Assembly: GCA_018399995.1 (NCBI GenBank)
Contig: JAGYMU010000007.1
Coordinates: 1 to 50,654, forward strand
Direction: 5' to 3'
Length of the DNA: 50,654 nucleotides
DNA from: Halanaerobiales bacterium
GTDB taxonomy: Bacteria > Bacillota > Halanaerobiia > Halanaerobiales > M55B127
The notes under the pieces were generated by a model. The model worked only from the letters and a program-made list of their open reading frames with translations, did no database searches and had not been told where the DNA came from. Shown in pieces: positions 22,763-44,969 of this stretch. Position 1 is the first letter of the stretch; each line of letters begins with the position of its first letter. A program made the position numbers and the translations under genes.

Positions 22763-22767
22763 TTAAT

Positions 22768-23797
22768 ATGATATTAACTTATATTCTAGAGTTGTTAAAA
22801 CCAACAAAAAGAAAACAGGATATATTTTTAGATAATATTATAGAAGTAGTTAAGAATCGTAAAGTTATAAGCTGATAAACTTAAAGCAGGAGAAACTAAG
22901 TTGAGTTCTGCTGGCTTTGAAGAGATAGACCTACCTTCAGCTATTAAAAATCAGGATATTAGAGAAGTTAAAGCATTGTATAAACTATTTTTAAAGTCTA
23001 GTTCTGATAAAGAGAATATTGAGTTTAAGGATAATCAACCAATTTGTTATAATAATCAAAATTATAAAATTGATAACCATATAAGCTCAACCTCTTTATA
23101 CTAACAAATATCAAAGATTTGCCTTCCCTGTCAAACAAATTAAAAAATTTGAAAAGTTGCAACGACATACCGAAAATGGTACTTTACTGTAACAATTAGA
23201 ATTGTTAATAAAGAATCCAATAACTCTAATGTAATAGGGTTTCGCCAATTAGCTGTTGTTAGTGTTAAAACTCCTAAAGGCAGAGAAGTTAATCGTCAAT
23301 TCTATAATGGTAAATAAGCAGGATTTATTCGTAAAGAATATCGTTTGTTAAGAAGAGAACTAGGTCAATTAAAGAAAGATAAAGCTATTAAAATTATTGA
23401 TGACAAAGAGCAGAGATGGATCATAGATTTAAACCATAAAATTAGTCGCCAAATAGTTAATCTTGCTGTGCAAGAGGAAGTTGGTACTATAATTATGGAG
23501 GATCTAGAAAATATCCGAGATACTGCTGAAAGTCTTAATAGGGCTGATAGAAATCTTGATAGCTGCTTTTTTTATCAGCTGCAACAATTTATTGAAGATA
23601 AGGCTGAGTTAGCTGGGATTAAGGTAGAATATATCAACCCCCAATATACCTCCAAGAGTTGTTCTAGATGTGCTAGAGTTAAAAAATCCAACCGTAAAGC
23701 TAATCTATATTCTTGTGAATGTTGTAATCATATCCACGCTGATTTAAATGTAAGCAGAAATATAGCTAATAAATATTTAGAACAACAATTTGCTTAG
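22768..23797 (+). pseudogene. tnpB: TnpB remnant (RNA-guided nuclease of IS605 type)
   Basis: Several frames must be joined to give a TnpB. The N-terminus MILTYILELLKPTKRKQDIF stops at a TGA. The next piece, 22901-23104, reads LSSAGFEEIDLPSAIKNQDI. A third reads GFRQLAVVSVKTPKGREVNR. The C-terminus 23345-23797 has the RuvC glutamate region IIMEDLENI and the zinc-ribbon CSRC...CECC. The expected RuvC-I aspartate (GIDxG) is replaced by sequence without Asp. The nuclease is therefore dead by frameshifts, stops and active-site loss, while tnpA is whole. Confidence 0.85.
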
Positions 23798-24642: not shown

Positions 24643-26118
24643 ATGATTGATTTAGAGATTAATCAAGAACAATTAAAAAGAACTGTTCAGCGGGCCAGAG
24701 AAAAAAATATCATAATGCCCACATTTGAAGAAATGAAGAATCCAGAGTTAATTCCGGACAAGGTTAAAAAAAAGTTAAAAGATATCGGGTTATGGGATAT
24801 TAATTCATATAATCTGTTCAGGATAACCTGGAAAAATGAGCCCCAAAAAGAAGGCGGTTTATATAATGGGGTTAATTACTTAGAATTACCTTCGCAATTA
24901 ACGGGTGTTGATGCTCGAATCATCGGCTTGGTAGGGAAATGGATGCCAACTGGATCTCATAAAGTTGGTGCAACTTACGGTTGTTTAGTACCAAGGCTCA
25001 TTACCGGCCAGTTTGATCCTACTTATCATAAGGCCATCTGGCCTTCTACAGGCAACTACTGTCGGGGAGGAGCTTATAACGCTGAACTATTATCCTGTGA
25101 ATCAATTGCTATATTGCCGGAGGAGATGAGTCAGGAAAGATTTGAATGGTTGTCAAATGTTGCTGGAGAGGTGATTGCTACACCTGGAAGTGAAAGTAAT
25201 GTAAAAGAGATATTCGATAAAACATGGGAATTAAAAGAGAAGAGAGATAATGTGGTTGCCTTTAATCAGTTCAGTGAATTTGGTAACCATCTATGGCATT
25301 ATGAAGTAACGGGTAATGCTATGGAAGAGGTATTAAAAGCAGAGATGAGGCGGGATGAGAACTTCAGAGGAGTAACAATTACTTCCGGTTCTGCAGGGAC
25401 TCTGGGTTGTGGTGATTATCTAAAAGAAAAGTATCCTAACAGTAAGATTGCAGTAGGTGAAGCACTGCAGTGTCCAACTCTTTTAAATAATGGTTTTGGT
25501 GCTCATAAAATAGAAGGGATTGGAGATAAACATGTACCCTGGATACATAATGTAAAGAATACTGATATGGTTATTGCTGTTGATGATGAAGACAGTATGG
25601 GGTTAGTAAGGCTTTTTAATGAACCAGCCGGGCATCAGTATTTAAATGAAGAATTAGGACTTGATAAAGAACTAATTGATAAACTTGATTTGCTGGGTAT
25701 CTCTGGAGTGGCTAATATGATTTCTGCTATTAAGTTTGCCAAATACTATGAATTAGGAGAAAAAGATATTATTTTAACCGTATTTACTGATTCAATGGAA
25801 CTTTATAAATCAAGATTGGCAGAGATGGAAGAAAAGTTCGGTGAATATAATAAAATTGATGCTGCTGTTGATTATAATTCCCATTTAAAATCATTAACAA
25901 CTGATTATTTGGAAGAGTTGACATATGAAAGTAGAAAAAGAATCCATAATCTCAAATACTATACTTGGATTGAACAACAGGCTAAAGACTTAAAAGAGCT
26001 TAATGCTCAGTGGTATGATTATGATAATTACTGGGGTAATATACATAATATGACCGAGCAAATAGATAGTTTGATCAAAAAATTTAATAAGAAAGTGGGA
26101 CTACTTAAAGAGCTTTAA
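24643..26118 (+). CDS. PLP-dependent lyase/thiolase (OrtB/threonine-synthase-like fold)
   Basis: This 491-residue fold-type II PLP enzyme has its probable Schiff-base lysine in MPTGSHKVGATYG near residue 108 and a phosphate-binding loop TSGSAGTLGCGDY. It resembles proteins called 'PLP-dependent lyase/thiolase', a group including the beta subunit of 2-amino-4-oxopentanoate thiolase. It does not look like the shorter YgeX diaminopropionate ammonia-lyase normally found in this kind of cluster. It is first in the purine island, 22 bases before a second PLP enzyme. I infer that the two handle the amino-acid-like end product of purine ring opening. Substrate unknown. Confidence 0.75.
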   Translation: MIDLEINQEQLKRTVQRAREKNIIMPTFEEMKNPELIPDKVKKKLKDIGLWDINSYNLFRITWKNEPQKEGGLYNGVNYLELPSQLTGVDARIIGLVGKWMPTGSHKVGATYGCLVPRLITGQFDPTYHKAIWPSTGNYCRGGAYNAELLSCESIAILPEEMSQERFEWLSNVAGEVIATPGSESNVKEIFDKTWELKEKRDNVVAFNQFSEFGNHLWHYEVTGNAMEEVLKAEMRRDENFRGVTITSGSAGTLGCGDYLKEKYPNSKIAVGEALQCPTLLNNGFGAHKIEGIGDKHVPWIHNVKNTDMVIAVDDEDSMGLVRLFNEPAGHQYLNEELGLDKELIDKLDLLGISGVANMISAIKFAKYYELGEKDIILTVFTDSMELYKSRLAEMEEKFGEYNKIDAAVDYNSHLKSLTTDYLEELTYESRKRIHNLKYYTWIEQQAKDLKELNAQWYDYDNYWGNIHNMTEQIDSLIKKFNKKVGLLKEL

Positions 26119-26140
26119 TGAAAACGAAGAAGGTGAGAAA

Positions 26141-27397
26141 ATGAAGTATGTCAAGAACTTAAAATGTACTAATTGTGGTCAAACATATGAAGCTGTACCT
26201 GAAAGATATTTATGTGATACATGTGGTGAAAAGGGCATATTGGATGTTCAGTACAAATATGAAAAGATAAAAGAAGATTGGAATAAAGAAAAACTGAGTC
26301 AAAATAATGAGAGTTCAATATGGAGGTATATGCCTCTGCTGCCGGTTATAGAAACCACTCAAAAACCTGATTTAAGGATTGGTCATACTCCCTTTTATAA
26401 TTCAAAAAAGATGGCCAAAAAATTAGGCTTAAATAATTTAGTTATCAAAGATGATGGATTAAACCCAACAGGATCTCTCAAAGATAGGGCTTCTGCTATA
26501 GCAGCTGTTAAAGCAAAAGAATCAGGTGCAAAGACGGTTTCTTGTTCTTCTACAGGTAATGCAGCTTCATCTTTAGCAGGTAATGTAGCTGCGATGGAAA
26601 GTGAGATGAAAGCGATAATTTTTGTGCCAAAGAGAGCACCTGCCGGTAAAGTTGCTCAACTATTAGTGTATGGAGCAGAAGTGGTTTCTGTCCAGGATTC
26701 ATACGAAGAAACATATTATTTATCGGATCGAGCCATAAAAAAATGGGGTTGGTATAATCGGAATGCTGCTATTAACCCATATTTAGTAGAGGGTAAAAAA
26801 ACAGCAGTTTTAGAATTAGCAGAGCAGCTCAACTGGAATATGCCGGATTGGGTGGTATTTTCAGTTGGAGATGGTTGTACGATCGCTGGTGCGTATAAGG
26901 GATTGTATGATTTGAAACAGATCGGATTTATAGAAAGTATACCGAAATTACTCGGGGTTCAGGCTGAGGGTTGTGCTCCTATTACGAAGGCCTTTAAAAC
27001 AGGAAAGGAACTTGAAGTCACAGAAGAAAACACAATAGCGGATAGCATAGCTGTTGGAAGTCCCAGTAATTACAAAAAGGCCTTAACGGCTGTAAAGAAA
27101 TCCCGGGGGGATATGATAAATGTCAGTGATCAGGATATTTTAAAAATGATCAAAACCCTAGGAAGTACCACAGGAATATTTGGTGAACCAGCTGGTGTAG
27201 CAGGGTTAGCTGGTATAAAGAAGGCTGTAAGTTTGGAAATTATTACAGCTGATGATAATGTTGCGGCCGTAATAACGGGTAATGGCCTCAAAGATATTGA
27301 TAATGGGCGGAAAGCCACAGGTGATTTAATTAAAATTGAGTCTGATATTAATAAATTAGAAGAGATCTTTTATAAGAAGGGGGTAATTGATGTATGA
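26141..27397 (+). CDS. Threonine-synthase-like PLP enzyme with zinc finger
   Basis: This 418-residue enzyme begins with a four-cysteine zinc ribbon (CTNCGQ...LCDTCG). The PLP lysine is in NPTGSLKDRASA near residue 115, and CSSTGNAASSLAGNVA is the substrate/phosphate loop. It is the general architecture of threonine synthase, but no homoserine-pathway genes are near. Its position between another PLP enzyme and YgeY/YgeW homologues suggests a catabolic beta- or gamma-elimination role instead. GAAGGTGAG precedes the ATG. The stop overlaps the start of the next gene. Confidence 0.85.
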   Translation: MKYVKNLKCTNCGQTYEAVPERYLCDTCGEKGILDVQYKYEKIKEDWNKEKLSQNNESSIWRYMPLLPVIETTQKPDLRIGHTPFYNSKKMAKKLGLNNLVIKDDGLNPTGSLKDRASAIAAVKAKESGAKTVSCSSTGNAASSLAGNVAAMESEMKAIIFVPKRAPAGKVAQLLVYGAEVVSVQDSYEETYYLSDRAIKKWGWYNRNAAINPYLVEGKKTAVLELAEQLNWNMPDWVVFSVGDGCTIAGAYKGLYDLKQIGFIESIPKLLGVQAEGCAPITKAFKTGKELEVTEENTIADSIAVGSPSNYKKALTAVKKSRGDMINVSDQDILKMIKTLGSTTGIFGEPAGVAGLAGIKKAVSLEIITADDNVAAVITGNGLKDIDNGRKATGDLIKIESDINKLEEIFYKKGVIDV

Positions 27398-27945
27398 CAG
27401 ATAATTTGAAGATGGGCAAAAAGATCAGACATATTAGAAAGAAAAAAAATTTAAGCTTATCTGCTTTAGCATCTAAAATAGACAAAACTTCCAGTTATTT
27501 AAGCCAGGTTGAAAGAGGACTGGCTGAGCCATCTATCACAGCTCTCAGGGAAATATCAAGAGCCCTTGATGTACCTATCTTTTATTTTTTAATAGAAGAT
27601 AAAAAGCATAATGCTGTTGTAAGAAGAGAAGATCGTAAAACTTTAAAGTTTCCTAATTCACAGCTTACTTTTGAATTAATCTCTCCTGATTTAGATCATG
27701 ATATTGAGATGATTGAAGCCAGGCTAAAACCCGGGGCAAGCACTTTAGACCAGCCATTATCCCACAATGGAGAGGAAGTTAGTATTGTAATGAAAGGTAA
27801 AATGGAAATCACCATAGGAAATGAAAGCTATAAATTATCAGAGGGAGATAGTGTTTACTACAATGCAAATCTACCACATAAAATTACTAGTATAGGTGAA
27901 GATGACCTAATCTTTATATCTGCTATCACCCCACCTAATTTTTAA
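27394..27945 (+). CDS. XRE-family regulator with C-terminal cupin
   Basis: This 183-residue transcription factor has a helix-turn-helix at residues 8-62 (KKIRHIRKKKNLSLSALASKIDKTSSYLSQVERG) and a cupin ligand-binding barrel at about 105-180 (HNGEEVSIVMKGKMEITIGNE ... YYNANLPHKI). This design usually senses a small metabolite and controls adjacent catabolic or amino-acid genes. It overlaps the preceding gene by four bases (ATGA), so it is co-expressed with the enzymes it probably regulates. Confidence 0.92.
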   Translation: MTDNLKMGKKIRHIRKKKNLSLSALASKIDKTSSYLSQVERGLAEPSITALREISRALDVPIFYFLIEDKKHNAVVRREDRKTLKFPNSQLTFELISPDLDHDIEMIEARLKPGASTLDQPLSHNGEEVSIVMKGKMEITIGNESYKLSEGDSVYYNANLPHKITSIGEDDLIFISAITPPNF

Positions 27946-27974: not shown

Positions 27975-29216
27975 ATGAAAGATTGTTCTAAAATTTTACA
28001 AAAGGCAGAAGAATATCGTGCAGATATGTCGCGTTTTTTGCGGGATATGATTGCAATTCCGAGTGAGAGTTGTCAGGAAGAGAGAGTGATCTTAAGAATT
28101 AAAGAAGAGATGGAGAAGCTTAATTTTGATAATATAGAAATTGATGAGATGGGAAATATATTGGGATATGTAGGACAAGGAAGTCATTTAATAGCCATGG
28201 ATGCTCATATAGATACAGTGGGAGTAGGAGATGAAGGTCTCTGGAACCATGACCCTTATAAAGGCTTTGAAGATCAAGAAATAATATTGGGAAGGGGTGC
28301 AAGTGACCAGGAGGGTGGAATGGCTTCTATGGTTTATGCGGCAAAGATTATGAAAGACTTGAATTTAGAAGATGATTACACTCTCTTAATTTCAGGAACG
28401 GTCCAGGAAGAAGATTGTGATGGTTTGTGCTGGCATTACATGATTGAAGAAGAGGATATTCGGCCTGAATTCGTTGTTATTACTGAGCCAACTTCCTGCA
28501 ATATTTACAGAGGGCATAGGGGCAGGATGGAGATAAAGGTCAGCACCCATGGGGTTAGTTGTCACGGTTCAGCACCCGAGCGGGGGGAAAATGCTATTTA
28601 CAAAATGGCACCTATCTTAAATGATCTGAAAGCACTTAATATGAAGCTTAAAAAGGATGATTTTTTAGGTAAAGGCAGTTTAACTGTCTCTGAAATATTT
28701 CATAGTTCTCCTTCCAGATGTGCGGTGGCAGATGGTTGTTCTATATCAATAGACAGGAGGTTAACTGCCGGGGAAACCTGGGAGTTTGCTCTAAATCAGA
28801 TACGTGAGCTTCCCTCAGTTAAGATAGCAAAGGCAGAGGTAGAAATGTATAAATATACCAGGCCTTCTTATACTAATTTGAAATATCCTGTTGAATCATA
28901 TTTCCCGACCTGGGTTATTGAAGAAGACCATCCGGTTTGTCAAACCCTGGTTGATTCTTATCAGGAGCTTTTTTCAGAAAAGCCCCTGGTTGATAAATGG
29001 ACCTTTTCGACTAATGGAGTTTCAATCATGGGCAGGCACGCAATACCCTGTATAGGTTTTGGTCCCGGTCATGAAGATCAGGCTCATGCTCCCAATGAAA
29101 AAACCTGGAAGGATGAATTAGTAAAAGCAGCAGCAATCTATGCTTTGATCCCAGGTACTTATCTCAATAAATACGTGGACAAAATGCCGAAAGTAACTAA
29201 AAATATTGTTGAGTAA
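27975..29216 (+). CDS. ygeY: YgeY-family zinc hydrolase (M20-like)
   Basis: This 413-residue M20-type amidohydrolase/peptidase has metal-binding segments [37 protein letters not shown] with the catalytic Glu, and [15 protein letters not shown] near the end. It matches the group annotated as 'YgeY family selenium metabolism-linked hydrolase'. In E. coli and Clostridia these sit with ygeW, ssnA and xanthine dehydrogenase genes and are linked to purine breakdown. A carbamoyl or amide bond of an opened purine product is a plausible target. AGGAGG precedes the ATG. Confidence 0.92.
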
Positions 29217-29238: not shown

Positions 29239-30222
29239 ATGAAGACAATTTTTAGGGATAAGAATTTTATAACCCTGCAGGACTGGTCAAAGGAAGAGAT
29301 AGATACATTACTGGAGGTATCATTTGATTTAAAGAAAAAATTTGCTTTAGGAGTGGACACACCCTATTTAAAAAACAAAACTGCCATGTTAATGTTTTTT
29401 GAACAGTCGACAAGAACCAGAAATTCTATGGAAGCTGGTCTGGCACAATTGGGAGGGCATGCTAACTTTTTGGATACCTCTACAATGCAGGTCTCACATG
29501 GAGAAGTAGCTAAAGATACTGCAATTATTCTTTCCAGGTATGGACATATGATTGCCTGCCGTTATTGTGATTGGGGTATTGGAAATGAATATTTAAACAA
29601 TTTGGCTAAATGGTCAACAGCACCTGTTTTGAGTCTGCAGGATGACCTATATCATCCTATGCAAGGCATTGCAGATTTAATGACTATTATAGAAAAAAGG
29701 GAGATTATCAAAAATTTAAAGGTTTCAATTATCTGGGCATATGCTACCAGTCATAAGAAGCCAATTTCTGTTCCTGTAACCCAATCACTACTTTTCCCAC
29801 GATATGGTATGGACGTTACTTTAGCTTATCCAGAAGGTTATGAGCTACCAGATTGGGTGGTTGAACAGGCCAGAAAAAATGCTGAGAAACAGGGGGGCTC
29901 TTTTAAGATAACTAATGATATGGAAGTGGCCTATACTGATGCTGATGTCGTAATACCCAAAAACTGGGGAAGCTGGGTTAATGATCAAAGTGATGAAATA
30001 ATTGATGATGAGCTTGAATCTTATAAAGATTGGAAATGCTCTGAGAAAATGTTAGCAAAGGCGGACGATAATGTTATTTATATGCATGCTTTGCCTGCAG
30101 ACAGGGGTAATGAAGTAGAAGATTCTGTAATTGATGGTCCACATTCTATAGTTTATGATGAAGCAGAAAATAGACTACATACCGCTAAGGCAGTTATGGC
30201 ACTTACGATGGGTGGCAAATAA
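29239..30222 (+). CDS. ygeW: YgeW-type knotted carbamoyltransferase
   Basis: This 327-residue member of the aspartate/ornithine carbamoyltransferase superfamily has the carbamoyl-phosphate loop STRTRNS, the second-site motif HPMQGIADLMT and the HALPADRGNEV region. The sequence between these (TSTMQVSHGEVAKDTA, CRYCDWGIGNEY) is of the YgeW type, not ArgF or PyrB. In catabolism it would run backwards, releasing carbamoyl phosphate from a ureido compound for ATP synthesis. It follows ygeY by 22 bases behind AAGGAGGAATAA. E. coli YgeW is somewhat longer. Confidence 0.93.
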   Translation: MKTIFRDKNFITLQDWSKEEIDTLLEVSFDLKKKFALGVDTPYLKNKTAMLMFFEQSTRTRNSMEAGLAQLGGHANFLDTSTMQVSHGEVAKDTAIILSRYGHMIACRYCDWGIGNEYLNNLAKWSTAPVLSLQDDLYHPMQGIADLMTIIEKREIIKNLKVSIIWAYATSHKKPISVPVTQSLLFPRYGMDVTLAYPEGYELPDWVVEQARKNAEKQGGSFKITNDMEVAYTDADVVIPKNWGSWVNDQSDEIIDDELESYKDWKCSEKMLAKADDNVIYMHALPADRGNEVEDSVIDGPHSIVYDEAENRLHTAKAVMALTMGGK

Positions 30223-31471: not shown

Positions 31472-33763
31472 ATGGAATTTAACCATGTTCATAAATCAAA
31501 AAAAAGAGTAGATGTTTATGAAAAAGTAACCGGTAGAGCAAAGTATGGGGCAGATATGAGATTTCCAGATATGCTTTATGCTCAAACCCTATATACCAAA
31601 TATCCTTATGCAGAGATAAAGAATATAGATCTCGGCAGCGCCCAAAAACAAAACGATGTAGAAGCTATTATCACAGCCGAAGATGTTCCTAATAATAAGT
31701 TTGGTGTAATAATAGAAAACCAGCAGGTACTTGCTGAAGACAAATCCCTTTTTATAGGTGATGGAATCGCAGTAGTAGCAGCTAAAACTGCTAAAGCAGC
31801 CGGCAGAGCAGTAGAACTTATTGATGTACAATATAAAGAGCTTAAGGGTGTTTATGATTCTCTGGAAGCCAGAAAAGAAGGGTCTCAGTTGATACACGAA
31901 GAAAATGAAAGCAATCAGGTTATCCATCATCCTCTCAGAAAAGGTAATGTTAAGCAAGGATTTTTAGAATCTGATGTAATCATAAAAAGAGAATATGATA
32001 CTCCCTTTATTGAACAATCCTATATTGAACCGGAAGCAGTTGTGGCTGTTCCCTATCAAGAAAACTCTACTATAACGATATATGGATCTATTCAAAACCC
32101 CTTTGCCACCCAGGAGGCTGTGGCATCAGTTTTAAAAGAAAAACTGAATAAGGTAAGGATAGTTCAAAACCATATGGGTGGATCTTTTGGAGGTAAAGAC
32201 GAAGTAGTTTCTTCTATGGCAGCCAGGGCGGCTATCTTAGCTTTAAAGACAGAGAAGCCTGTAAGGCTGGTTAATACGAGAGATCAATCCATAAAAGAAA
32301 GCTATAAGAGGCATCCTTATAAGATGAAATATAAAATAGGGGCTACTCATGATGGTCGGCTTAAGGCCATGCAAATTGAAGCAGTTGCTGATAGTGGAGC
32401 TTATGCCTGTCAGACTCCTTTTGTTACCTGGAGATCAGTTGTACAGGCTACAGGCCCATACGAGGTAGAAAATGTAAAAACCGATACTTATGGTTTTTAT
32501 ACAAATAACATCTATACAGGAGCAATGAGGGGTTATGGTTCACCGCAAGTAATTTTTGCTCAGGAATCACTGATGGATGAATTGGCAGAAGAGCTGGACA
32601 TGGATCCCGTGCAGCTTAGACTAAAAAACATCTACCACAATAATTCTATTACAGCCAGTGGACAAAAGCTGGACAGCCATCAAGTAAGTCTAAAAGAAGT
32701 CCTGACAAAAGCAGTTGAAAAGAGCGATTTTATTGAAAAATATAATAGATATAAAAAAGAGCAACCCGGAGATAAAAAAAGAGGTATAGGGCTTTCCATC
32801 AGCTTCAGAGGCTGCAGTCTAGGCGCCGAGGCGATCGATGCAGCAGGTATTATTTTATCTCTAAAGAAAGATGGTAGTGTCAATCTTTACAGTGGATTAG
32901 CGGAAAATGGACAGGGCCTAAAAACTGTTTACTGTCAAATGGCAGGTGAAATACTGGGTTTGGATATAGATAGAATAAATTTTATGGAAGTAGATACGTT
33001 AATATCACCTGATAGTGGATCTACTGTAGCTTCACGCGCCACTTTAATTGGGGGTAATGCTGTAAAAAAAGCAGCCAATAACCTGGCAAATCGGATAAAG
33101 AAATTTATAGCAGAGAGGTATGAGCAAACTGAAGGGGATATTGTTTTAAAAGATGGTACAATTTACGGCAAAAAAGATATTGAAATAATGAGTATTGCAG
33201 AGATGTCATCTAAGGCTGCAATGGAAGGGGTTTATTTAACCTCCTATGGATGGTATGTTTCACCTGAAATCTCATGGGATGAAGAAACTGGACAAGGTAA
33301 TCCATATTTTACATATGTATATGGTTGTCAGGTAGCTGAGGTTGAGGTTGATATTAAAACAGGAGAGATCAGCGTCTTAAAGATGACGGCCGCTCATGAT
33401 GTAGGTCGCGCAATAAATCCAGCTAATGTTAAAGGTCAGATTTACGGGGGAGTCATGATGGGACTCGGTTACGGGATAATGGAAGAGTTAAAAACAAATC
33501 AGGGATATATTCAAAACACCAATTTTGATGAATATCTCATACCAACTGTTAAAGATATGCCTGATATAGATCCTATAATTGTTGAGAACCCCGATCCAGA
33601 TGGTCCTTTTGGAGCAAAATCTATAGGAGAACCAACCCTTGAATTAGGGGCTGCTGCCATTGCTAATGCTGTCGCAAATGCTACAGATAAAAGAATAAGA
33701 TCCCTTCCCATTAATCTTGAACAAATTATAGTAGGCAGAAAACTGTCTAAAGGAGGGGAGTAG
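31472..33763 (+). CDS. xdhA: Xanthine dehydrogenase, molybdenum-binding subunit
   Basis: This 763-residue large subunit of a three-gene molybdenum hydroxylase has molybdopterin contacts QNPFATQ, GGSFGGKDEV and AMRGYGSPQ. The catalytic glutamate lies in FGAKSIGEPTLE near the C-terminus. EQSYIEPEA carries a glutamate aligned by eye with the substrate-binding Glu of xanthine oxidoreductase, supporting a purine substrate such as hypoxanthine or xanthine. Clustered MocA-like and SsnA genes suggest a cytosine-dinucleotide, possibly selenium-containing, cofactor. TTGGAGGTG precedes the ATG. Confidence 0.93.
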   Translation: MEFNHVHKSKKRVDVYEKVTGRAKYGADMRFPDMLYAQTLYTKYPYAEIKNIDLGSAQKQNDVEAIITAEDVPNNKFGVIIENQQVLAEDKSLFIGDGIAVVAAKTAKAAGRAVELIDVQYKELKGVYDSLEARKEGSQLIHEENESNQVIHHPLRKGNVKQGFLESDVIIKREYDTPFIEQSYIEPEAVVAVPYQENSTITIYGSIQNPFATQEAVASVLKEKLNKVRIVQNHMGGSFGGKDEVVSSMAARAAILALKTEKPVRLVNTRDQSIKESYKRHPYKMKYKIGATHDGRLKAMQIEAVADSGAYACQTPFVTWRSVVQATGPYEVENVKTDTYGFYTNNIYTGAMRGYGSPQVIFAQESLMDELAEELDMDPVQLRLKNIYHNNSITASGQKLDSHQVSLKEVLTKAVEKSDFIEKYNRYKKEQPGDKKRGIGLSISFRGCSLGAEAIDAAGIILSLKKDGSVNLYSGLAENGQGLKTVYCQMAGEILGLDIDRINFMEVDTLISPDSGSTVASRATLIGGNAVKKAANNLANRIKKFIAERYEQTEGDIVLKDGTIYGKKDIEIMSIAEMSSKAAMEGVYLTSYGWYVSPEISWDEETGQGNPYFTYVYGCQVAEVEVDIKTGEISVLKMTAAHDVGRAINPANVKGQIYGGVMMGLGYGIMEELKTNQGYIQNTNFDEYLIPTVKDMPDIDPIIVENPDPDGPFGAKSIGEPTLELGAAAIANAVANATDKRIRSLPINLEQIIVGRKLSKGGE

Positions 33764-33765
33764 AA

Positions 33766-34635
33766 ATGATAGAATTTGAAGCATTAAAACCGCAAAACTT
33801 AAAAGAGGCTTTAGCTGTCCTAAAAGAAAAAGGCATGGATATAAAGATACTGGCCGGGGGAACAGATCTCTTGGTGGAAATTAATAATAATAGTGATAGA
33901 TTAGGCGATTTTAAGTACTTAATGGATATCAGTTCGATAAAAGGACTGGATGAAATTGAGAATAAAAAAGAACATCTAATAATAGGAGCACTCTGCACTC
34001 ATACTCAGATCAGCGAATCTGAATTAATTAAGCGCAATTTTCCGATATTGATTAGGGCTGCTAAAACTATTGGTTCCACTCAGATAAGGAATAGAGGAAC
34101 GATTGGCGGCAATATAAATAATGGCTCACCAGCTGCCGATTTAATTACTCCTCTTATTGCTCTCAAAGGTTCGGTAATACTAAAATCAAAAAATAAAAAA
34201 AGGGAGCTGCCTTTGCAGGACTTCATAACTGGGCCATATAAAACTGATCGAAAAGAAGATGAGATCATGACTAAAATCAAAATACCTAAAATTACTTCTG
34301 ATTATCAGAGTAGCTTTCAAAAAGTAAAGAGGCGGCAGGCAGTTGCTATTGCTCGAATTAATCTAGCAGTGGTTACAGATATAAAAAAGAAGAGGTTTAA
34401 TGATATAAGGGTTGTTTTTGGTTCAGCTACTCCCACCGCTATTCGGTTTTTAAAAATAGAGAAAAGGCTAAAACAAGCTCATATTAATGAACTGGATCTT
34501 GAATCTATTGCAGAACAAACAGGTCAGGAGATGGTGGAAATAACAGGAGAAAGATGGTCTACCCCTTATAAAAAACCTGTTGTCGGTAATCTTTTAATAA
34601 GAGCACTTCAAGAAATAATTAGGGAGGTGCAGTAA
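33766..34635 (+). CDS. xdhB: Xanthine dehydrogenase, FAD-binding subunit
   Basis: This 289-residue FAD subunit passes electrons from the iron-sulfur subunit to NAD or another acceptor. The FAD signature is seen as KILAGGTDLLVEI (residues ~30) and GSTQIRNRGTIGGNINNGSPAAD (~105-127). The C-terminal CO-dehydrogenase-flavoprotein domain is complete. AAAGGAGGGG precedes it, and it starts three bases after xdhA and overlaps xdhC by one base. Confidence 0.95.
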   Translation: MIEFEALKPQNLKEALAVLKEKGMDIKILAGGTDLLVEINNNSDRLGDFKYLMDISSIKGLDEIENKKEHLIIGALCTHTQISESELIKRNFPILIRAAKTIGSTQIRNRGTIGGNINNGSPAADLITPLIALKGSVILKSKNKKRELPLQDFITGPYKTDRKEDEIMTKIKIPKITSDYQSSFQKVKRRQAVAIARINLAVVTDIKKKRFNDIRVVFGSATPTAIRFLKIEKRLKQAHINELDLESIAEQTGQEMVEITGERWSTPYKKPVVGNLLIRALQEIIREVQ

Positions 34636-35111
34636 TGCAGAAAGTAAAAGTAAGTTTAACTGTTAATAGAAAAAAATATAATCTTAAGGTTGACCCTGAT
34701 GAAAGGCTACTTGATACCCTGAGAGATAGGCTGCATTTATTTGGGGTTAAAGAAGGATGTAGTATTGGAGAATGTGGAGCTTGTACTGTAATTTTAGATG
34801 GTAAAGCCGTCAACTCTTGTATGGTTTATACCTTTCAGATCGATGGTAGCCAGGTTTTAACAGTTGAGGGTTTAGAGATTGATGGTCGTCTAGATCCTTT
34901 ACAGTTGTCATTTATTGAACACCAGGCAGTTCAATGTGGATTTTGCACACCGGGTATGTTAATGTCAGCTAAAGCCCTCTTAAACAAAAACCCTAATCCC
35001 GATAAAGAAGCAATCAAAACAGCCATTGAAGGCAATTTATGCCGCTGTACCGGTTATCAGCAGATTATTGAGGCAATTGAAGCATCTACTAAAAAGGATG
35101 GAAGTGAATAA
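34635..35111 (+). CDS. xdhC: Xanthine dehydrogenase, [2Fe-2S] subunit
   Basis: This 158-residue protein carries two [2Fe-2S] clusters. The plant-ferredoxin-type cluster is GCSIGECGACTVILDG with a later C. The second, helical-domain cluster is CGFCTPG and CRCTGY. It relays electrons between the molybdenum centre and FAD. It overlaps xdhB by one base and lies one base from the next gene. The name follows the E. coli xdhABC order, not the XdhC maturation factor, which is absent here. Confidence 0.95.
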   Translation: MQKVKVSLTVNRKKYNLKVDPDERLLDTLRDRLHLFGVKEGCSIGECGACTVILDGKAVNSCMVYTFQIDGSQVLTVEGLEIDGRLDPLQLSFIEHQAVQCGFCTPGMLMSAKALLNKNPNPDKEAIKTAIEGNLCRCTGYQQIIEAIEASTKKDGSE

Positions 35112-35112
35112 G

Positions 35113-36480
35113 ATGTCTAAAATATTAATCAAAGATATTAAAGAATTAATCACAATGGACAAAGGTAAAAACAGACATAAAGATGTTGACATATTAATTG
35201 AGGATGAACAGATTAAACAGATCAAGCAAAATATTAAGATAGATAAAGATGAAGTGAACGAAATCATCGAAGGTAAAAGATATTTTGTCTTTCCGGGTTT
35301 GATAAACACTCATCACCACTTTTATCAGACCCTTACGAGGAATATTTATGAGGCTCAGGGTGTTGAACTATTTGATTGGCTTAAGTTCTTATATCCGATC
35401 TGGGCGAATCTGACTCCTGAGGCTGTATATTATAGTACACTCCTGGCCTCAGCTGAACTATTGAAAACAGGCTGTACTACTAGTGTTGACCATTTTTATG
35501 TCTTTCCTGAAAGCCAAACCGATAAATTAATGGACTATCAGTTTAAAGCTGCCCGCGAGATAGGTATAAGGTTTTATGGTAGTAGGGGAAGTATGTCATT
35601 AAGTGAAGAAGATGGAGGTTTACCGCCAGCTTCTATCGTTCAGAGCGAAGATGAAATTTTGCGGGATTCACAGAGGGTTATAGAAGAATTTCATGATAAC
35701 AGTAAATTTTCAATGCAGCGGGTTGTCCTGGCACCCTGTTCTCCCTTTTCTGTTTCCAAAGAACTTCTCAAAGAATCGATCAAGCTAGCCAGACAATATG
35801 GGGTATTAAGTCATACTCATCTGGCTGAAACTGTTGATGAAAACCAGTATTGCTTAGATAAATTCAATAAAAGGCCCTTAAAGTTCATGGAAGAATTGGG
35901 CTGGCTGGGTGATGATGTGTGGTATGCTCATGGAGTTCATTTTAATGAATTTGAAATAGCAAAATTAGCCGAAACTAAGACTGGAGTTGCGCACTGTCCA
36001 GCTTCAAATATGAAATTATCATCCGGTGTTGCCAAGATACCTCTCATGATTAAAAAAGATGTACCTGTTTCCTTGGCGGTTGATGGTAGTGCCAGTAATG
36101 ATGCCTCCAACATGATCATGGAATTAAGGCTGGGTTATCTACTTCATAAATTATTTCATGGGATTGACAGTATAACTTCTGAGCAGATACTTTCTATAGC
36201 TACAAATGGGGGCAGAGATGTTTTAAATCAGCCAGAGATAGGTAGTATTGAAGAGAACAAAGCTGCTGATTTATTTATGATTAGTAGTGATAGATTAGGT
36301 TTTGCTGGAGGATTAAGTGATTCTGTAGAAGCACTTGTAAACACAGGTATTACACAGACAGTTGATTATACAATTGTTAATGGGAATGTGGTGGTTCGCA
36401 AAGGAGAATTAACCACTATTAAAGAATATAATACAATAAGACAGCATAACCAAATTGCTCAAAAATTAATAAATAGTTAA
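35113..36480 (+). CDS. 8-oxoguanine deaminase-like amidohydrolase
   Basis: The real start is the ATG at 35113 (MSKILIKDIKELITMDKG); the track's 35026 runs into xdhC. This 455-residue amidohydrolase has the metal motif GLINTHHHFYQTLTRN, HTHLAE, a later HG and DGSASNDASNMIMELR. The segment FYGSRGSMSLSEEDGGLPP is characteristic of 8-oxoguanine deaminase, which yields uric acid. That would let xanthine dehydrogenase-made 8-oxoguanine enter the urate pool. Guanine deaminase or a related triazine-type hydrolase is possible. It follows the iron-sulfur subunit directly. Confidence 0.85.
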   Translation: MSKILIKDIKELITMDKGKNRHKDVDILIEDEQIKQIKQNIKIDKDEVNEIIEGKRYFVFPGLINTHHHFYQTLTRNIYEAQGVELFDWLKFLYPIWANLTPEAVYYSTLLASAELLKTGCTTSVDHFYVFPESQTDKLMDYQFKAAREIGIRFYGSRGSMSLSEEDGGLPPASIVQSEDEILRDSQRVIEEFHDNSKFSMQRVVLAPCSPFSVSKELLKESIKLARQYGVLSHTHLAETVDENQYCLDKFNKRPLKFMEELGWLGDDVWYAHGVHFNEFEIAKLAETKTGVAHCPASNMKLSSGVAKIPLMIKKDVPVSLAVDGSASNDASNMIMELRLGYLLHKLFHGIDSITSEQILSIATNGGRDVLNQPEIGSIEENKAADLFMISSDRLGFAGGLSDSVEALVNTGITQTVDYTIVNGNVVVRKGELTTIKEYNTIRQHNQIAQKLINS

Positions 36481-36493
36481 GGGGGAATTGGAA

Positions 36494-37825
36494 TTGAAGA
36501 TTTATGGGAATGGAATTTTATTTACTTTAAATTCAAAAGACCCTGTTATTAAAAATGGAGCAGTTTTAATTGACCAAGGTATAATAAAAGATTATGGAAA
36601 GACTAACTTATTAAAACAAAGGTATCAGGAGTCCGATTATTTTAATGTAAAAGATAAGATAATAATGCCCGGCATGATTAATACCCACATGCATTTTTAC
36701 AGTACTTTCGCCCGTGGTATGAACCTAAAGACAGATAGTCCACCGGAAAATTTCTCAGAGATTTTAGAAAAACTTTGGTGGCGTCTGGACCAAACTTTAA
36801 ATAGTGAAGATATATATTACAGTGCACTTTATGCCTTAATAGAGAGTATTAGAAATGGAACCACTACTATCTTTGACCATCATGCCAGCTATGGTTATAT
36901 AGAAAACAGTCTGGATATAATAACAGAAGCGGTCGTAAAATCCAAGTTGAGGGCTAACCTTTCTTTTGAAATATCTGACCGACATGGTAGCTTGAAATCA
37001 GAGGAAGCTTTAAAAGAAAATAGAAGATTTATTGAGAGGTCTGAAAAGCTAAATAATGACTTTCTAACTCCCAATATTGGAATACATGCCTCTTTTACAG
37101 TAGAAGACAAAACTCTTTTAGACATAGCTGAGCTGGCTGAAGCAACCGATACTCCAACTCATTTTCATATAGCAGAAGGGAAAATTGATCAAAAAGATAG
37201 TCAAAAACGAGGCTATAAAAATATTACAGAGCGGTTAAATAAGTTAAATATACTTAAAGAGAATTCTCTTGCTATTCACGGCGTTCATCTATCAGCCGAT
37301 GAGCTGCAAATTTTAAAGGAAAATAATGTTTATCTAATTCACAATCCGGAATCTAATATGGGTAATGCGGTTGGCGCTATTGACCTTAAGAACACCTTAA
37401 ATAAGAATTTAAAGGTAGGATTGGGAACTGATGGATATACAACAGATATGTTTAATGAGCTCAAAGTGGCTGATCTATTGCAAAAACATGATAGTTCAAA
37501 CCCTAATGTGGGAGGACTTGATATTAAAAAGTTGGTATTTGAAAATAATCGAGAGATTGCTCAGAAGTACTTCAAAAAAAGGCTGGGTATAATAAAAAAA
37601 GATGTACCGGCTGATCTAATTGTAATTGATTATAAATCTCCTACACCGATTACGAAAGAAAACTACTTTTTTCATATCTTATTTGGATTTAATGGCGGAA
37701 TGGTTGATACAACAATAGTCAATGGACAGGTCTTGATGGAAAATCGGGAGGTGGAAATTTTAGATTATGAAAAAACAATCAGAAAATGTAAAAGACAGGC
37801 CGAGGACTTCTGGAAGAGATTTTAA
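36494..37825 (+). CDS. ssnA: SsnA-family aminohydrolase
   Basis: I favour the TTG at 36494, which is 8 bases after AGGGGG; the track's TTG at 36488 is too close to it. The protein (443 residues) has GMINTHMHFYSTFARGM, TPTHFHIAEG, AIHGVHL and GLGTDGYTTDMF, the metal ligands of the amidohydrolase fold. The context and the MNLK/WWRLDQTL segment match SsnA, an uncharacterised enzyme always found with selenium-dependent molybdenum hydroxylases and purine genes. The exact substrate is unknown; it may deaminate or open an oxidised purine. The end overlaps the next gene by 59 bases. Confidence 0.9.
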   Translation: MKIYGNGILFTLNSKDPVIKNGAVLIDQGIIKDYGKTNLLKQRYQESDYFNVKDKIIMPGMINTHMHFYSTFARGMNLKTDSPPENFSEILEKLWWRLDQTLNSEDIYYSALYALIESIRNGTTTIFDHHASYGYIENSLDIITEAVVKSKLRANLSFEISDRHGSLKSEEALKENRRFIERSEKLNNDFLTPNIGIHASFTVEDKTLLDIAELAEATDTPTHFHIAEGKIDQKDSQKRGYKNITERLNKLNILKENSLAIHGVHLSADELQILKENNVYLIHNPESNMGNAVGAIDLKNTLNKNLKVGLGTDGYTTDMFNELKVADLLQKHDSSNPNVGGLDIKKLVFENNREIAQKYFKKRLGIIKKDVPADLIVIDYKSPTPITKENYFFHILFGFNGGMVDTTIVNGQVLMENREVEILDYEKTIRKCKRQAEDFWKRF

Positions 37826-38678
37826 GCAATATAAATATTTCAGACCAAAATCAAAAGAAGAGCTTATCAGAATCATAAATGATTTTCAAAAAGATCTAAC
37901 AATTATTGCAGGTGGGACTGATCTTTTAGTAGCAAATTATCAAAAACTGTATGAAATCAAGAACTGGCTTGATCTGAATCTTTTAAATGAGTTTAAAAAT
38001 ATAAAGATGTTTGATGATAAAGTAGAAATTGGTTCAATGGTTACTCATCAAAGATTAAGTAAATTAGATCAGATAAAAGAATTATTTCCTGTCCTACATC
38101 AAGCTGCTGCAGATGTAGGGTCACCTCAAATTAGAAGTCGAGGAACTATTGGTGGTAACATTGTTACATCTTCACCTGCTGGAGATTTACTTCCACCTCT
38201 TTTAATATATGATGCACAACTTAAGATAATTTCAGGAGAGGGCAGTAGGGTAGTTGATGCTAATGAATTTTTCACAGGGCCCAAAAAGAATATTTTAAAA
38301 GAAGGTGAAATATTAGAAAAAATTATCATACCTTTAAAAGAAGAAGTATACAGAGGGGCCTGGATCAAAGTTGGCAAGAGAAAGGCTCTGATAATTTCTT
38401 CTATCAGCCTTGCTTTGAACCTCAGCATAGATAGATCTAATCTAATCAAAAAAGCAAGGATCTGTATAGGCTCTGCTGCCCCTGTACCTCTTAGAATAAA
38501 AACAGCAGAACAGGCAATTTTGAAAAAAGAACTGACTGAAATTAATATAGAAGAGATTGCCCAAATTGTTTCTGAGGAGATATCTCCTATTGATGATATA
38601 AGGGGTACTGCAAAGTACCGCAGGCAGGTTGCGCTAAACATTACTAGGAAGGCTTTAAGTGAGGTGACGAATCAGTGA
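37767..38678 (+). CDS. Second Mo-hydroxylase, FAD subunit
   Basis: This 303-residue FAD-binding subunit has the same domain as xdhB. FAD motifs are IIAGGTDLLVANYQ and GSPQIRSRGTIGGNIVTSSPAGD. An ATG at 37767 lies 12 bases after GGAGGTGG, inside the end of ssnA, so translation is likely coupled. Together with the next three genes it forms a separate hydroxylase. Size and gene order match the FAD subunit of the four-subunit nicotinate dehydrogenase type. Confidence 0.93.
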   Translation: MKKQSENVKDRPRTSGRDFKQYKYFRPKSKEELIRIINDFQKDLTIIAGGTDLLVANYQKLYEIKNWLDLNLLNEFKNIKMFDDKVEIGSMVTHQRLSKLDQIKELFPVLHQAAADVGSPQIRSRGTIGGNIVTSSPAGDLLPPLLIYDAQLKIISGEGSRVVDANEFFTGPKKNILKEGEILEKIIIPLKEEVYRGAWIKVGKRKALIISSISLALNLSIDRSNLIKKARICIGSAAPVPLRIKTAEQAILKKELTEINIEEIAQIVSEEISPIDDIRGTAKYRRQVALNITRKALSEVTNQ

Positions 38679-39157
38679 AGATTACTTTAACAGTCAATGG
38701 AGAAAAACGAGAGGTCGAAGTCAAGCCCCAGACCAGGCTTTTAGATTTACTGAGAGAAGACCTGGGTTTAACAGGTACCAAAGAGGGTTGTGGTAAAGGC
38801 GAATGTGGAGCCTGTACTGTTATTATGAATAATAAGCTGGTTGCTTCCTGTCTTGTATTAGCTGTTCAGGCTGATCAATCTGAAATACTAACAATAGAAG
38901 GTTTAAACTGTCAGGATGAGCTTCATCCCATCCAAAATGCCTTTATTAATAAGGGGGCCGTTCAGTGCGGTTTTTGTATCCCAGGCATGATTATGTCGAG
39001 CAAACAACTTTTGGATGAAAATATAAATCCGACAGAGGCAGAAATAAAAAGAGGACTTTCCGGTAATATATGTAGATGCACCGGATATGTCAAGATAATT
39101 GATGCTGTCAAAGAAGCAGCTCATAAGATGAGAAGTAGGGGTGAAGATGATGTCTAA
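38675..39157 (+). CDS. Second Mo-hydroxylase, [2Fe-2S] subunit
   Basis: This 160-residue protein starts at a GTG that overlaps the previous stop (GTGA) behind GAGGTGA. Both clusters are present: GCGKGECGACTVIMNN and CGFCIPG with CRCTGY. It is clearly a paralogue of the subunit at 34635. The length equals the small subunit of nicotinate dehydrogenase-type enzymes. It overlaps the start of the large subunit gene. Confidence 0.95.
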   Translation: MKITLTVNGEKREVEVKPQTRLLDLLREDLGLTGTKEGCGKGECGACTVIMNNKLVASCLVLAVQADQSEILTIEGLNCQDELHPIQNAFINKGAVQCGFCIPGMIMSSKQLLDENINPTEAEIKRGLSGNICRCTGYVKIIDAVKEAAHKMRSRGEDDV

Positions 39158-40469
39158 AAGATATGTAGGAAAAGATATGCTTAAAGTAGATGCAGAGTCT
39201 AAAGTGACTGGGCGAGCTCAATATCCTTCAGATTTAAAATTTGATAACTGCTTACATGTTAAGATAAAAAGGGCAACTTATCCTCATGCGATTTTAAAAG
39301 ATTTGGATATTAATAGGGCAAAAAATATAGATGGTGTAGTAGATATTATAACTGCAAAAGATTATCCTAATCTTAATAAATTTGGCCTTATTATTAAAGA
39401 TCAAGATGTTTTAATAAAAATGGGAGAAAAGATGAAATTTATGGGAGATGCCCTTGCTATAATTATTGCTGAGACAGAAGAAATTGCTTTAAAGGCTCGC
39501 GATAAAATAGGGGTTGAGATAAAAAAATTAGAAGTAATTACTGATCCACTCCGGGCAATTGAAAAGGACGCACCTCCTATTCATGAAGATCTCAGTGGGT
39601 TATGTACTGATTATCTCAAACCAAATTTAAATCAAAAAAATATACTCGTCGATCACTACCTTAAAAAAGGTGATGTAAAAAAAGGTTTTACAGAGGCTGA
39701 CCTGATAGTGGAAAATGAATATAGAACACAGCATATTGACCAACTTCCCCTGCAAAATGAATCAGGTTACGCTTTGTATGATGACAAAAAAGATGAAATA
39801 AAAATCTGGGCAGCTTCTCAATGGCTGCATGATACTCAGGCTGATGTTGCACAATCTATAAATATGTCCAAAGAAAAAATTAGGATAATACAAACAGCTA
39901 TTGGAGGGGCTTTTGGAAAAAAAGAAGATGTTTCAGTCCATATTCACCTTGCTCTAGCAGCCTTACACACACAAAGGCCTGTAAAACTGGAGTATACAAG
40001 AGAAGAGTCAATGATTGCACAGTCTAAAAGACATCCCCTTATTATTAAAGCGAAGACAGGCGTCAGCAGCAATGGGTATTTAACAGCCTGGTCAGTGGAA
40101 GTTATTGGAGATACGGGTGCATATGCCTCGAGTGGCCCTGCAGTTGTTCATAAAGGGATGTATCACTGTACCGGCCCTTATAATGTGGAAAATATAGAAG
40201 GGACCTCATATGCTATATATACGAACAACACTTATGGTGGTGCTATGAGAGGATTTGGGACAACGCAAATGGCTTTTGCCTATGAGTCACAGATGGATAT
40301 TTTGGCACATAAACTGAATATCGACCCCGCCCAATTCAGATATCAAAATGCATATATTACGGGATCAGTTACTCCTAATGGGCAAAAATTGGGTAAAAGC
40401 GTAAATACGAAAAGGACAATCGAGTCTGTTATAGATTTAGCTAAATGGGAGGGGGAGATTAACAAATGA
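39147..40469 (+). CDS. Second Mo-hydroxylase, large Mo-subunit part (NdhL-like)
   Basis: This 440-residue protein corresponds to the first 55-60% of a usual molybdenum-binding subunit. The start is ATG 39147 or 39150, since the track's GTG at 39141 overlaps the ribosome site AGGGGTGAAG. It holds MPT-contact regions GGAFGKKEDV and AMRGFGTTQ but not the catalytic glutamate. Where XdhA reads QSYIEPEA, this reads QLPLQNES, so the substrate-binding Glu position is Gln. The rest of the subunit is encoded next, with an ATGA overlap. This division is the same as in nicotinate dehydrogenase (NdhL + NdhM). Confidence 0.88.
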   Translation: MMSKRYVGKDMLKVDAESKVTGRAQYPSDLKFDNCLHVKIKRATYPHAILKDLDINRAKNIDGVVDIITAKDYPNLNKFGLIIKDQDVLIKMGEKMKFMGDALAIIIAETEEIALKARDKIGVEIKKLEVITDPLRAIEKDAPPIHEDLSGLCTDYLKPNLNQKNILVDHYLKKGDVKKGFTEADLIVENEYRTQHIDQLPLQNESGYALYDDKKDEIKIWAASQWLHDTQADVAQSINMSKEKIRIIQTAIGGAFGKKEDVSVHIHLALAALHTQRPVKLEYTREESMIAQSKRHPLIIKAKTGVSSNGYLTAWSVEVIGDTGAYASSGPAVVHKGMYHCTGPYNVENIEGTSYAIYTNNTYGGAMRGFGTTQMAFAYESQMDILAHKLNIDPAQFRYQNAYITGSVTPNGQKLGKSVNTKRTIESVIDLAKWEGEINK

Positions 40470-41458
40470 GAAAAAAAGGTAGAGGAATGGCAACGATAAT
40501 GTTTGGTTTTGGTTATGGAGAAGGGTTTCCAGACCATTCAATAGCCGAAATTGAAATTACCACAGATCAGAAAATAAAGTTAAGGACAGCAGGGGCAGAT
40601 GTGGGTCAGGGATTTTTAACTACTATGATCCAAATTGCTGCTGAAGTTTTAAAGATTGATTCTTCTTACATAGAGATTGTAGGCCAGGATACACATCAGG
40701 CAAAAAATTCCGGGTCAACTTCAGCTACCCGACAGACTTTTTTTTCAGGCAATGCCGTAAGAGAAGCAGCTGAAGAAGTTATGGGTATGATTTATCATCA
40801 CGGGAGCATATATTTTAACAGTAACCATCCGGAATTGACTGTAAAGGATGGAGAAATATACGCTTGTGATAATAAAGAAGAGAAGATCAGTTACTGGGAG
40901 CTAGCTGAAATTGTGAAGCAAAAAGGTGATAACCTGCAGGCAGAAGCTTCTTTTTTCCCCAAAACCTATGTACCAGATGAGAAGACCGGGCAGTCCGAAA
41001 AAAATTATGTAGCTTATACTTTTATGACTCAAGTTATTGATATAGAGGTTGATACAGATACCGGGATTATCGAAGTAATGAATGTATATACTGCACTTGA
41101 TGTGGGTAAGGCTATAAATCCTCAGAATGTACATGGCCAAATTGAAGGCGGAACAGTTCAGGGTCTGGGGATGGCTTTGATGGAAGAGCAGGTAATAAAA
41201 AATGGTATTACTATTAATCCCGATATGACAAATTACTTAGTGCCCAGTATTCAGGATATACCTGAATTTGAAAGCACTTTAATTGAGAATGAAGATTCCG
41301 ATGGACCTTTTGGCGCAAAGGGAATCGGAGAGCCAACACTTATTGCAGCCTGTCCGGCCGTTGCCAATGCTGTCTATGATGCGATAGGTGTTAGAATTAC
41401 AAGTCTCCCCATCACACCTGAAATAATATTGAATTCTTTAGAGGAGAATAATAATTAA
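40466..41458 (+). CDS. Second Mo-hydroxylase, medium Mo-subunit part (NdhM-like)
   Basis: This 330-residue protein carries the C-terminal half of a molybdenum-binding subunit: GADVGQGFLTTMIQIAAEVL, ALDVGKAINPQNVHGQIEGG and the catalytic glutamate loop FGAKGIGEPTLIAA. The ATG overlaps the stop of the preceding gene (ATGA), so production is coupled and the two chains should assemble into one active site. Combined length (about 770) matches the unsplit XdhA at 31472. A frameshift is an alternative, but the clean overlap and known split homologues argue for a true gene fission. Confidence 0.88.
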   Translation: MRKKGRGMATIMFGFGYGEGFPDHSIAEIEITTDQKIKLRTAGADVGQGFLTTMIQIAAEVLKIDSSYIEIVGQDTHQAKNSGSTSATRQTFFSGNAVREAAEEVMGMIYHHGSIYFNSNHPELTVKDGEIYACDNKEEKISYWELAEIVKQKGDNLQAEASFFPKTYVPDEKTGQSEKNYVAYTFMTQVIDIEVDTDTGIIEVMNVYTALDVGKAINPQNVHGQIEGGTVQGLGMALMEEQVIKNGITINPDMTNYLVPSIQDIPEFESTLIENEDSDGPFGAKGIGEPTLIAACPAVANAVYDAIGVRITSLPITPEIILNSLEENNN

Positions 41459-42048
41459 TGATTAATAATATTTTTATAACTGGTGATAAGTATGTTGGTA
41501 AAAGTACTTTTTTAAAAAATAATATAAAGAAATTGAATTTAAAACCCGGGGGATTTGTTGTAGGTAGAACGGGTGATATAAATAAGTGGTTGAGTTTTTA
41601 TCTGATTGACCCCATTGACTATTATTACCACTGGCAGGGAGAAAAGTTTTCTAATTACAAAAAGAAGTGTCAGGTTTTTGCAGAAAGGGAAAAACCTGAG
41701 GATAAATGGACTGTTTATAAAGAAGTATTTGATGACAAGGGAGTCAATTTTTTAGAAACCGCCCAAAACTTCAGAGATATTGTGGTCATGGATGAATTGG
41801 GCAGATTTGAGCGTAATGCCATGAAGTTTCAAGCCAGTGTGTTTTCAACACTGGACAGCAGTAAACCTGTATTAGCTGTTATCAAAGATGAGCACAATGT
41901 ATTTTTAGACAGGTTGAGAGATAGAGAAGATAAAAAGATGTATAGGTTAACAAAGCAGAATCGAGAAAAAGTTTTTCATGAAGTTCATCGAGATCTGAAA
42001 AAGATCATTATGGGGCTAAGACAAAAAAGGAGTGATATAAATGGCTAA
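41458..42048 (+). CDS. P-loop nucleotide-binding protein of the purine island
   Basis: This 196-residue cytoplasmic protein has a Walker A motif GDKYVGKST at residues 8-16 and a Walker B-like DIVVMDELGRFE near residue 105. It resembles the NTPase_1 (THEP1-like nucleoside-triphosphatase) family. It overlaps genes on both sides (TAATG upstream, eight bases downstream), so it is embedded in the operon. A role in cofactor insertion or maturation of the neighbouring molybdenum hydroxylases, or in nucleotide handling, is possible. No function is proven. Confidence 0.7.
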   Translation: MINNIFITGDKYVGKSTFLKNNIKKLNLKPGGFVVGRTGDINKWLSFYLIDPIDYYYHWQGEKFSNYKKKCQVFAEREKPEDKWTVYKEVFDDKGVNFLETAQNFRDIVVMDELGRFERNAMKFQASVFSTLDSSKPVLAVIKDEHNVFLDRLRDREDKKMYRLTKQNREKVFHEVHRDLKKIIMGLRQKRSDING

Positions 42049-44883: not shown

Positions 44884-44969
44884 TAACAAGGAGGTGTTTG
44901 TCAGGAGAATACTATTATATTCTTTATTTTTCTGATTATTTAAGCAAACAAATATAAGGAGGGAACTTG

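Follow-up and report, generated by a model that had tools for sequence, protein, structure and literature searches.

What carries out the last step of reductive urate degradation in a bacterium that has a gene cluster for this pathway but no YgeX that passes the curated cut-offs? The question is raised by contig JAGYMU010000007.1 (GenBank assembly GCA_018399995.1) of a Halanaerobiales bacterium, of which positions 1 to 50,654 of the forward strand (hereafter, the window) were analysed. The source is a metagenome-assembled genome (MAG), 80% complete, from the class of Halanaerobium. The first-pass annotation had proposed that two tandem pyridoxal phosphate (PLP) enzymes at 24643-27397 take the place of YgeX. 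Open reading frames (ORFs) of 491 and 418 aa were indeed found there on the forward strand, and both products match PF00291: PLP491 (24643..26118) with 47.7 bits and ThrCL418, or ThrCL (26141..27397), with 241.8 bits. It was only in 2025 that the reductive urate pathway was worked out, and YgeX was assigned to its last step (PMC12507026). Judging from sequence and gene context, the pair is rather probably a two-protein non-orthologous displacement of YgeX at the end of this pathway, because the pair is conserved, is linked to SsnA and YgeY, nearly excludes YgeX and is exchanged with it slot for slot in one locus.

The window contains SsnA above its cut-off together with YgeY, xanthine dehydrogenase-type (Xdh) proteins and a yanthine reductase candidate, and thus qualifies as a reductive urate cluster. 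As in the clusters of E. coli and C. difficile, for which the gene set was described by Li et al. (PMC12507026), Xdh, a UacX-like protein, SsnA and YgeY are encoded in the window. A HyuA homologue is located elsewhere in the source genome (G000:C183:8780-10153), so the route to 2,3-diaminopropionate (DAP) looks complete. Unlike those clusters, the window lacks YgeX, possesses the PLP pair and encodes a carbamoyltransferase of the ornithine carbamoyltransferase (OTC) type instead of the knotted YgeW.

YgeX was called by the curated cut-offs of TIGR03528 (532 bits) and NF006058 (276 bits). No protein above them was found in the source genome, where the best NF006058 scores were 50.8 (a DsdA-like protein) and 40.8 (ThrCL), and none was found in congener G003, which is 97% complete. 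Among 61 genomes of Halanaerobiia, the pair is present in 35 of the 38 that encode SsnA (counting G045, which has ThrCL alone), and neither gene occurs in the 23 genomes without SsnA (Fisher p 7e-14). YgeX above cut-off occurs in six of the 61. In G044 and G057 it lies inside the SsnA cluster and the pair is missing, in G020, G026 and G029 the pair is present and YgeX lies away from the SsnA cluster, and G016 has YgeX and no SsnA. Thirteen of the 243 Clostridia genomes encode SsnA; YgeX occurs in ten of these and the full pair in the other three, and the two sets do not overlap. The 51 SsnA-positive genomes of both classes comprise 35 with the pair, 12 with YgeX, three with both and one with neither (Fisher p 3e-8).

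The exchange is seen most directly in locus L179 of G044, where an equivalog-grade YgeX (TIGR03528, 583 bits vs 532) occupies the slot of the pair. It is followed by an OTC-like gene, YgeY, a permease, XdhABC, 8-oxoguanine deaminase, SsnA and XdhBCA, which is the order of the window. Since the flanking DAP-making enzymes are alike, consumption of DAP by the pair is the simplest interpretation. The pair also shares with YgeX (TIGR03528, E. coli b2871) the PLP fold type II (PF00291), and the net reaction proposed for it would be that of YgeX. In contrast to YgeX, it consists of two proteins whose likeness to YgeX is at superfamily level only (blastp 33 and 40 bits).

Several observations weigh against a simple replacement. 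The absence of YgeX from the source genome rests on an 80% complete MAG, although the more complete congener agrees. Shared ancestry of the genomes also enters into the co-occurrence counts, which makes the Fisher p values no more than indicative. The Asp preceding GN in the YgeX motif TDGNHG, which presumably forms a catalytic pair with Lys, is Thr in all aligned PLP491 and ThrCL sequences. Three loci, in Desulfosporosinus lacus (L068), a Clostridiales MAG (L070) and Diplocloster modestus (L091), carry YgeX and the pair at a distance of no more than about 10 kb. YgeX and PLP491 occur in Clostridium thailandense (G074) with no ThrCL, in G151 the pair is present and SsnA was not detected, and G005 is SsnA-positive with neither system, its contig breaking off within the cluster immediately ahead of the expected slot (L184). 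The three loci carrying both systems suggest that the pair may do something extra, and the proposal of the first-pass annotation, upheld by co-occurrence and by the exchange in L179, is weakened by them in its strict form. Together with G074 and G151, they allow for the pair adding a function or taking a different enantiomer.

Instead of replacing YgeX, the pair might divert DAP to the assimilation of purine carbon and nitrogen, with PLP491 using DAP as a donor for beta-replacement (for example, with sulfide to give cysteine) and ThrCL making or degrading the product. The loci in which YgeX and the pair occur together and the beta-substituted-alanine synthase (BSAS) core of PLP491 are in keeping with it. 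However, no recurring sulfur-metabolism genes were seen beside the pair in the loci read, and 35 of the 38 pair-bearing SsnA-positive genomes are without YgeX, so the pair would have to serve catabolism too. We regard this explanation as unlikely.

The nearest relatives of PLP491 by sequence are cysteine synthase and cystathionine beta-synthase (CBS). Its predicted structure (pLDDT 88.9) retrieved only BSAS enzymes as top PDB matches, with a TMt of about 0.8 for the core. PLP491 falls far under every equivalog cut-off, including those for CysK and CBS; the cysteine synthase model TIGR01139, for instance, gave 90.7 bits vs 350.95. The alignment with cysteine synthase shows that the BSAS active-site set is kept, namely Lys107 as the Schiff-base residue, the STGN loop, Asn138, Gln209, the GSAGT loop and Ser384. 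In its core fold and in the active-site Lys, Asn, Gln and Ser, PLP491 thus resembles CysK, CBS and the cysteine (hydroxyl) lyase Fn1055, from all of which it differs in its length of 491 aa, its terminal extensions (N-terminal by about 80 residues, C-terminal by about 100) and its motifs TG(S/A)HKVG and STGNYCRGG. Asp295, within HRIEGIGDKHVP, is invariant in 40 of 40 sequences. It corresponds to Asp232 of Fn1055 (in HRIEGISDEFIP), the residue that is Asn in PDB 5b55 (D232N, aminoacrylate complex), and E. coli CysK has Ala at this position. Fn1055 of Fusobacterium converts cysteine and water to serine and H2S (PMC9865163).

The description of PLP491 as thiolase-like was not supported: the model for OrtB, the 2-amino-4-oxopentanoate thiolase (NF040741), had no match to it at E 1e-3, and an OrtB-type function was rejected. 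An OrtB-like protein, assigned by eye, is encoded elsewhere in the source genome (L005). The PLP491 family is remarkably well conserved, with 63-70% identity between its members in Halanaerobiales and those in Chloroflexota, Synergistota, Bipolaricaulota and Asgard archaea. In the last group (Thorarchaeota, Hodarchaeota and Heimdallarchaeota; L082, L085, L100, L112, L121, L125, L131) identity to the PLP491 of the window is 63-66%, no recognisable urate cluster lies within 10 kb, and the gene was probably acquired by horizontal transfer. The neighbourhoods of orphan PLP491 genes were also considered as a source of functional clues and dismissed, as they have no common theme: in rumen Clostridia the gene stands beside unrelated FtsW and PGI genes, and in G042 beside an aminotransferase. 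In G039 (L041, 10506-11972 and neighbours) it is accompanied, in place of the urate cluster, by genes for a glycyl radical enzyme with its activase and for a BadF/HGD-D pair.

ThrCL would be called a threonine synthase by annotation, as it scores above the TIGR00260 cut-off (220.8 vs 167.1 bits). The closest fold to its predicted structure (pLDDT 92.3) is threonine synthase 2zsj (TMt 0.89), and it carries an N-terminal Cys ribbon with invariant C9, C12 and C25, in agreement with its first-pass description as a zinc-finger threonine-synthase-like protein. Threonine synthase ThrC (TIGR00260; PDB 2zsj, 1v7c) is the closest relative in both sequence and fold, and the catalytic Lys (Lys114 by alignment, forming the Schiff base) and STGN are kept. 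Several motifs are different. The ThrC motif NPYR(I/L)EGQK has become NPY(L/M/T)xEGKK, so that the position of Arg160 (T. thermophilus numbering, by counting in the alignment) is occupied by L, M or T in 30 of 30 ThrCL sequences, and that of Ser155 by Ala or Gly. Both residues, which we take to bind the phosphate of phosphohomoserine, are kept in seven of seven canonical ThrC proteins from genomes of the same clade. In addition, GNAGN is replaced with GDGC, and the TIATAI motif reads T(I/L)ADSI, which resembles the TLADG of E. coli TdcB more closely. Secondary matches of ThrCL include threonine/serine dehydratases and serine racemases; the OrtB model gave 48.9 bits vs a cut-off of 550. In the phylogenetic tree, canonical ThrC is cleanly apart from ThrCL; long branches leave the most basal ThrCL lineages and some of the paralogues poorly placed.

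The source genome has a separate, E. coli-type ThrC elsewhere. With the loss of Arg160 and Ser155 and the distance from the canonical clade, this led us to reject a plain threonine synthase; from its sequence, ThrCL is unlikely to act as one, and it appears unlikely to rescue a threonine synthase mutant, an outcome that the first-pass annotation had named as part of the evidence against its own proposal. The more general explanation that both proteins are ordinary enzymes, a threonine synthase and a cysteine synthase-like protein, located in the cluster by chance, can point to the TIGR00260 score, but it is hardly compatible with linkage to SsnA clusters across phyla, with the substitutions in all 30 ThrCL sequences, with the second ThrC or with the low scores of PLP491 against every cysteine synthase model. 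We consider it very improbable.

Judged by their motifs, the two proteins have intact PLP sites; PLP491 retains a catalytic set of the cysteine synthase type, and ThrCL has lost the ThrC residues Arg160 and Ser155. The favoured displacement of YgeX would then proceed as follows. Xdh, UacX/YgfK, SsnA, HyuA, carbamoyltransferase and YgeY would strip the purine to DAP, the putative substrate, which the pair would turn into pyruvate and ammonia. PLP491 may expel the beta-amino group of DAP, leaving PLP-bound aminoacrylate, to which Asp295 would help to add water, and serine would be released. ThrCL would deaminate the serine to pyruvate. Such a relay, with PLP491 as a DAP (hydroxyl) lyase and ThrCL as a threonine-synthase-derived serine deaminase, is a tentative assignment of roles and is less probable than the displacement itself. 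It lends a specific form to the action in sequence that the first-pass annotation had suggested, which is plausible. The same net reaction would result if either enzyme released aminoacrylate directly.

A different division of labour, which we hold to be a possibility of similar, modest weight to the relay, would be stereochemical: D-DAP would be handled by one protein, as a lyase (or racemase), and L-DAP by its partner, so that jointly they would match YgeX. This presupposes that a D-hydantoinase route gives DAP of one hand plus some of the other. The nearest characterised relatives, ThrC and CysK, act on L-amino acids, the Asp before GN of YgeX is missing from both proteins, and no residue sign of a second catalytic base was seen, all of which speaks against it. 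On the other side, fold type II covers serine racemases and D-specific lyases, and both dehydratases and serine racemases are found among the secondary matches of ThrCL. YgeX itself uses D- and L-DAP with equal activity (PMC12507026), and, according to a commentary, the ureido intermediates are proposed to have the R configuration, the origin of which is unsettled (PMC12990295).

The arrangement PLP491, ThrCL and an XRE-cupin regulator gene recurs in 18 of 20 loci of relatives, mostly with YgeY, an OTC-like gene, Xdh and SsnA further on, and is thus not due to chance. The scan was extended to the whole of GTDB, yielding at least 589 relatives, of which 80 loci were read. ThrCL is near PLP491 in most clusters read, in either order and often with HyuA, YqeA, carbamoyltransferases or YgfK, and the pair was seen in Halanaerobiia, Clostridia, Chloroflexota, Synergistota and Bipolaricaulota. 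Among the 20 genomes in which the two genes are not adjacent, a ThrCL-like protein of at least 250 bits is encoded elsewhere in 15 and of at least 350 bits in nine; these unlinked genes often adjoin SsnA, YgfK or YqeA. G039 and G042, of one family, have ThrCL, XRE, YgeY, OTC and SsnA together and PLP491 far off. In many Anaerolineae (L061, L075, L110, L113, L122, L127, L128) a gene of one family lies between ThrCL and PLP491, a glycosyltransferase of family 2 in the members scanned, and PLP491 is followed by a family of about 200 aa without a Pfam match.

The adjacency in most lineages raises the question of an obligate hetero-oligomer, a form that the first-pass annotation had also considered. 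As in PLP enzymes encoded by two genes, one subunit would be catalytic and the other would have a structural role or channel the substrate. The distances of PLP491 and ThrCL do correlate across 22 loci (r 0.54, Mantel p 2e-4), which shared descent would explain equally well. However, the Schiff-base Lys, STGN and the glycine-rich loops are kept in every aligned PLP491 and ThrCL, so neither looks like a dead subunit, and the genes stand at distant loci in G039, G042 and several other phyla. An obligate complex is accordingly a rather doubtful explanation.

The pair was not found described in the literature searched; several key papers, among them studies of C. sporogenes, lay outside that search, and an earlier mention is possible. 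A survey of the reductive urate pathway scored as YgeX any PF00291 protein near SsnA (PMC12507026). PF00291 covers PLP491, ThrCL and YgeX, so this survey cannot tell the pair from YgeX and would hide it. The last step of the pathway probably has a second, uncharacterised solution in many urate-degrading anaerobes. If true, this means that two unrelated solutions to the step exist, that the automated threonine synthase label of the 418-aa protein is wrong in many genomes, and that uricolysis is predictable in YgeX-less Halanaerobiia, Chloroflexota, Bipolaricaulota, Synergistota and Clostridia. The relay through serine, if correct, would give reductive uric acid degradation a second ending, hitherto undescribed, that serves several phyla instead of YgeX.

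The remaining genes of the cluster are also oriented in the forward direction. PLP491 and ThrCL are separated by 22 bp, and ThrCL, the regulator, YgeY and the carbamoyltransferase gene follow one another with overlaps or gaps of no more than 30 bp. The co-encoded XRE-cupin transcriptional regulator (27394..27945), recognised already in the first-pass annotation, comprises 183 aa with HTH_3 and Cupin_2 domains, is PuuR-like, overlaps ThrCL by 4 bp and adjoins it across Halanaerobiia. The pair had further been placed before YgeY and YgeW. The first of these, an M20 ureido hydrolase of the urate pathway (27975..29216), was confirmed (TIGR03526, 708 bits vs 321.5). The second was not: the 327-aa carbamoyltransferase at the YgeW position (29239..30222) scored 179.8 against TIGR03316 (cut-off 500), and the knotted YgeW has about 390 aa, so YgeW was ruled out. 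The score against the ornithine carbamoyltransferase model was 251.7 (cut-off 280.85), and by sequence the protein is a paralogue within the OTC family that no equivalog fits. In Halanaerobiia clusters, YgeY is usually accompanied by this OTC-family carbamoyltransferase. Bipolaricaulota and some Chloroflexota (L054, L056, L094, L099, L111, L126) have two different OTC-type carbamoyltransferases and carbamate kinase with no YgeY nearby, as if ATP-yielding phosphorolysis removed both ureido groups.

Further downstream are XdhA, XdhB and XdhC of the first xanthine-dehydrogenase-type molybdenum hydroxylase (31472..35111, by profile matches), an 8-oxoguanine deaminase-like amidohydrolase (35026..36480; NF006055, 584 vs 532; start codon uncertain), the pathway marker SsnA (36488..37825; NF005540, 553.5 vs 444; TIGR03314, 522 vs 455.5) and a second XdhB, XdhC and XdhA (37767..41458). 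These are followed by a nucleoside triphosphatase, the UacX-like dihydroorotate (DHO) dehydrogenase/ferredoxin protein (42041..43129; PF01180 and Fer4), an adenine deaminase and a permease. The UacX-like protein is the yanthine reductase candidate, by the role given to UacX in PMC12507026.

A promoter scan gave no more sites than shuffled sequences. The stretch directly upstream of the operon (22373-23797) encodes an IS200/IS605 transposase and the part of TnpB that corresponds to the 3′ portion of its gene. Between the genes for the carbamoyltransferase and XdhA (30422-31438), the xanthine permease is represented by three short ORFs in the window; it is fragmentary in the closest congener, G003, and intact in G001 and others, and a second permease is present at 44967-46292. 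The molybdenum subunit of the second Xdh (39141-41458) is encoded by two ORFs of 442 and 330 aa (39141-40469 and 40466-41458), which overlap by 4 bp and are split between the two cofactor-binding halves. The same split is found in L031, L176, L177, L179 and L184 and thus looks like a conserved gene fission and not a sequencing error.

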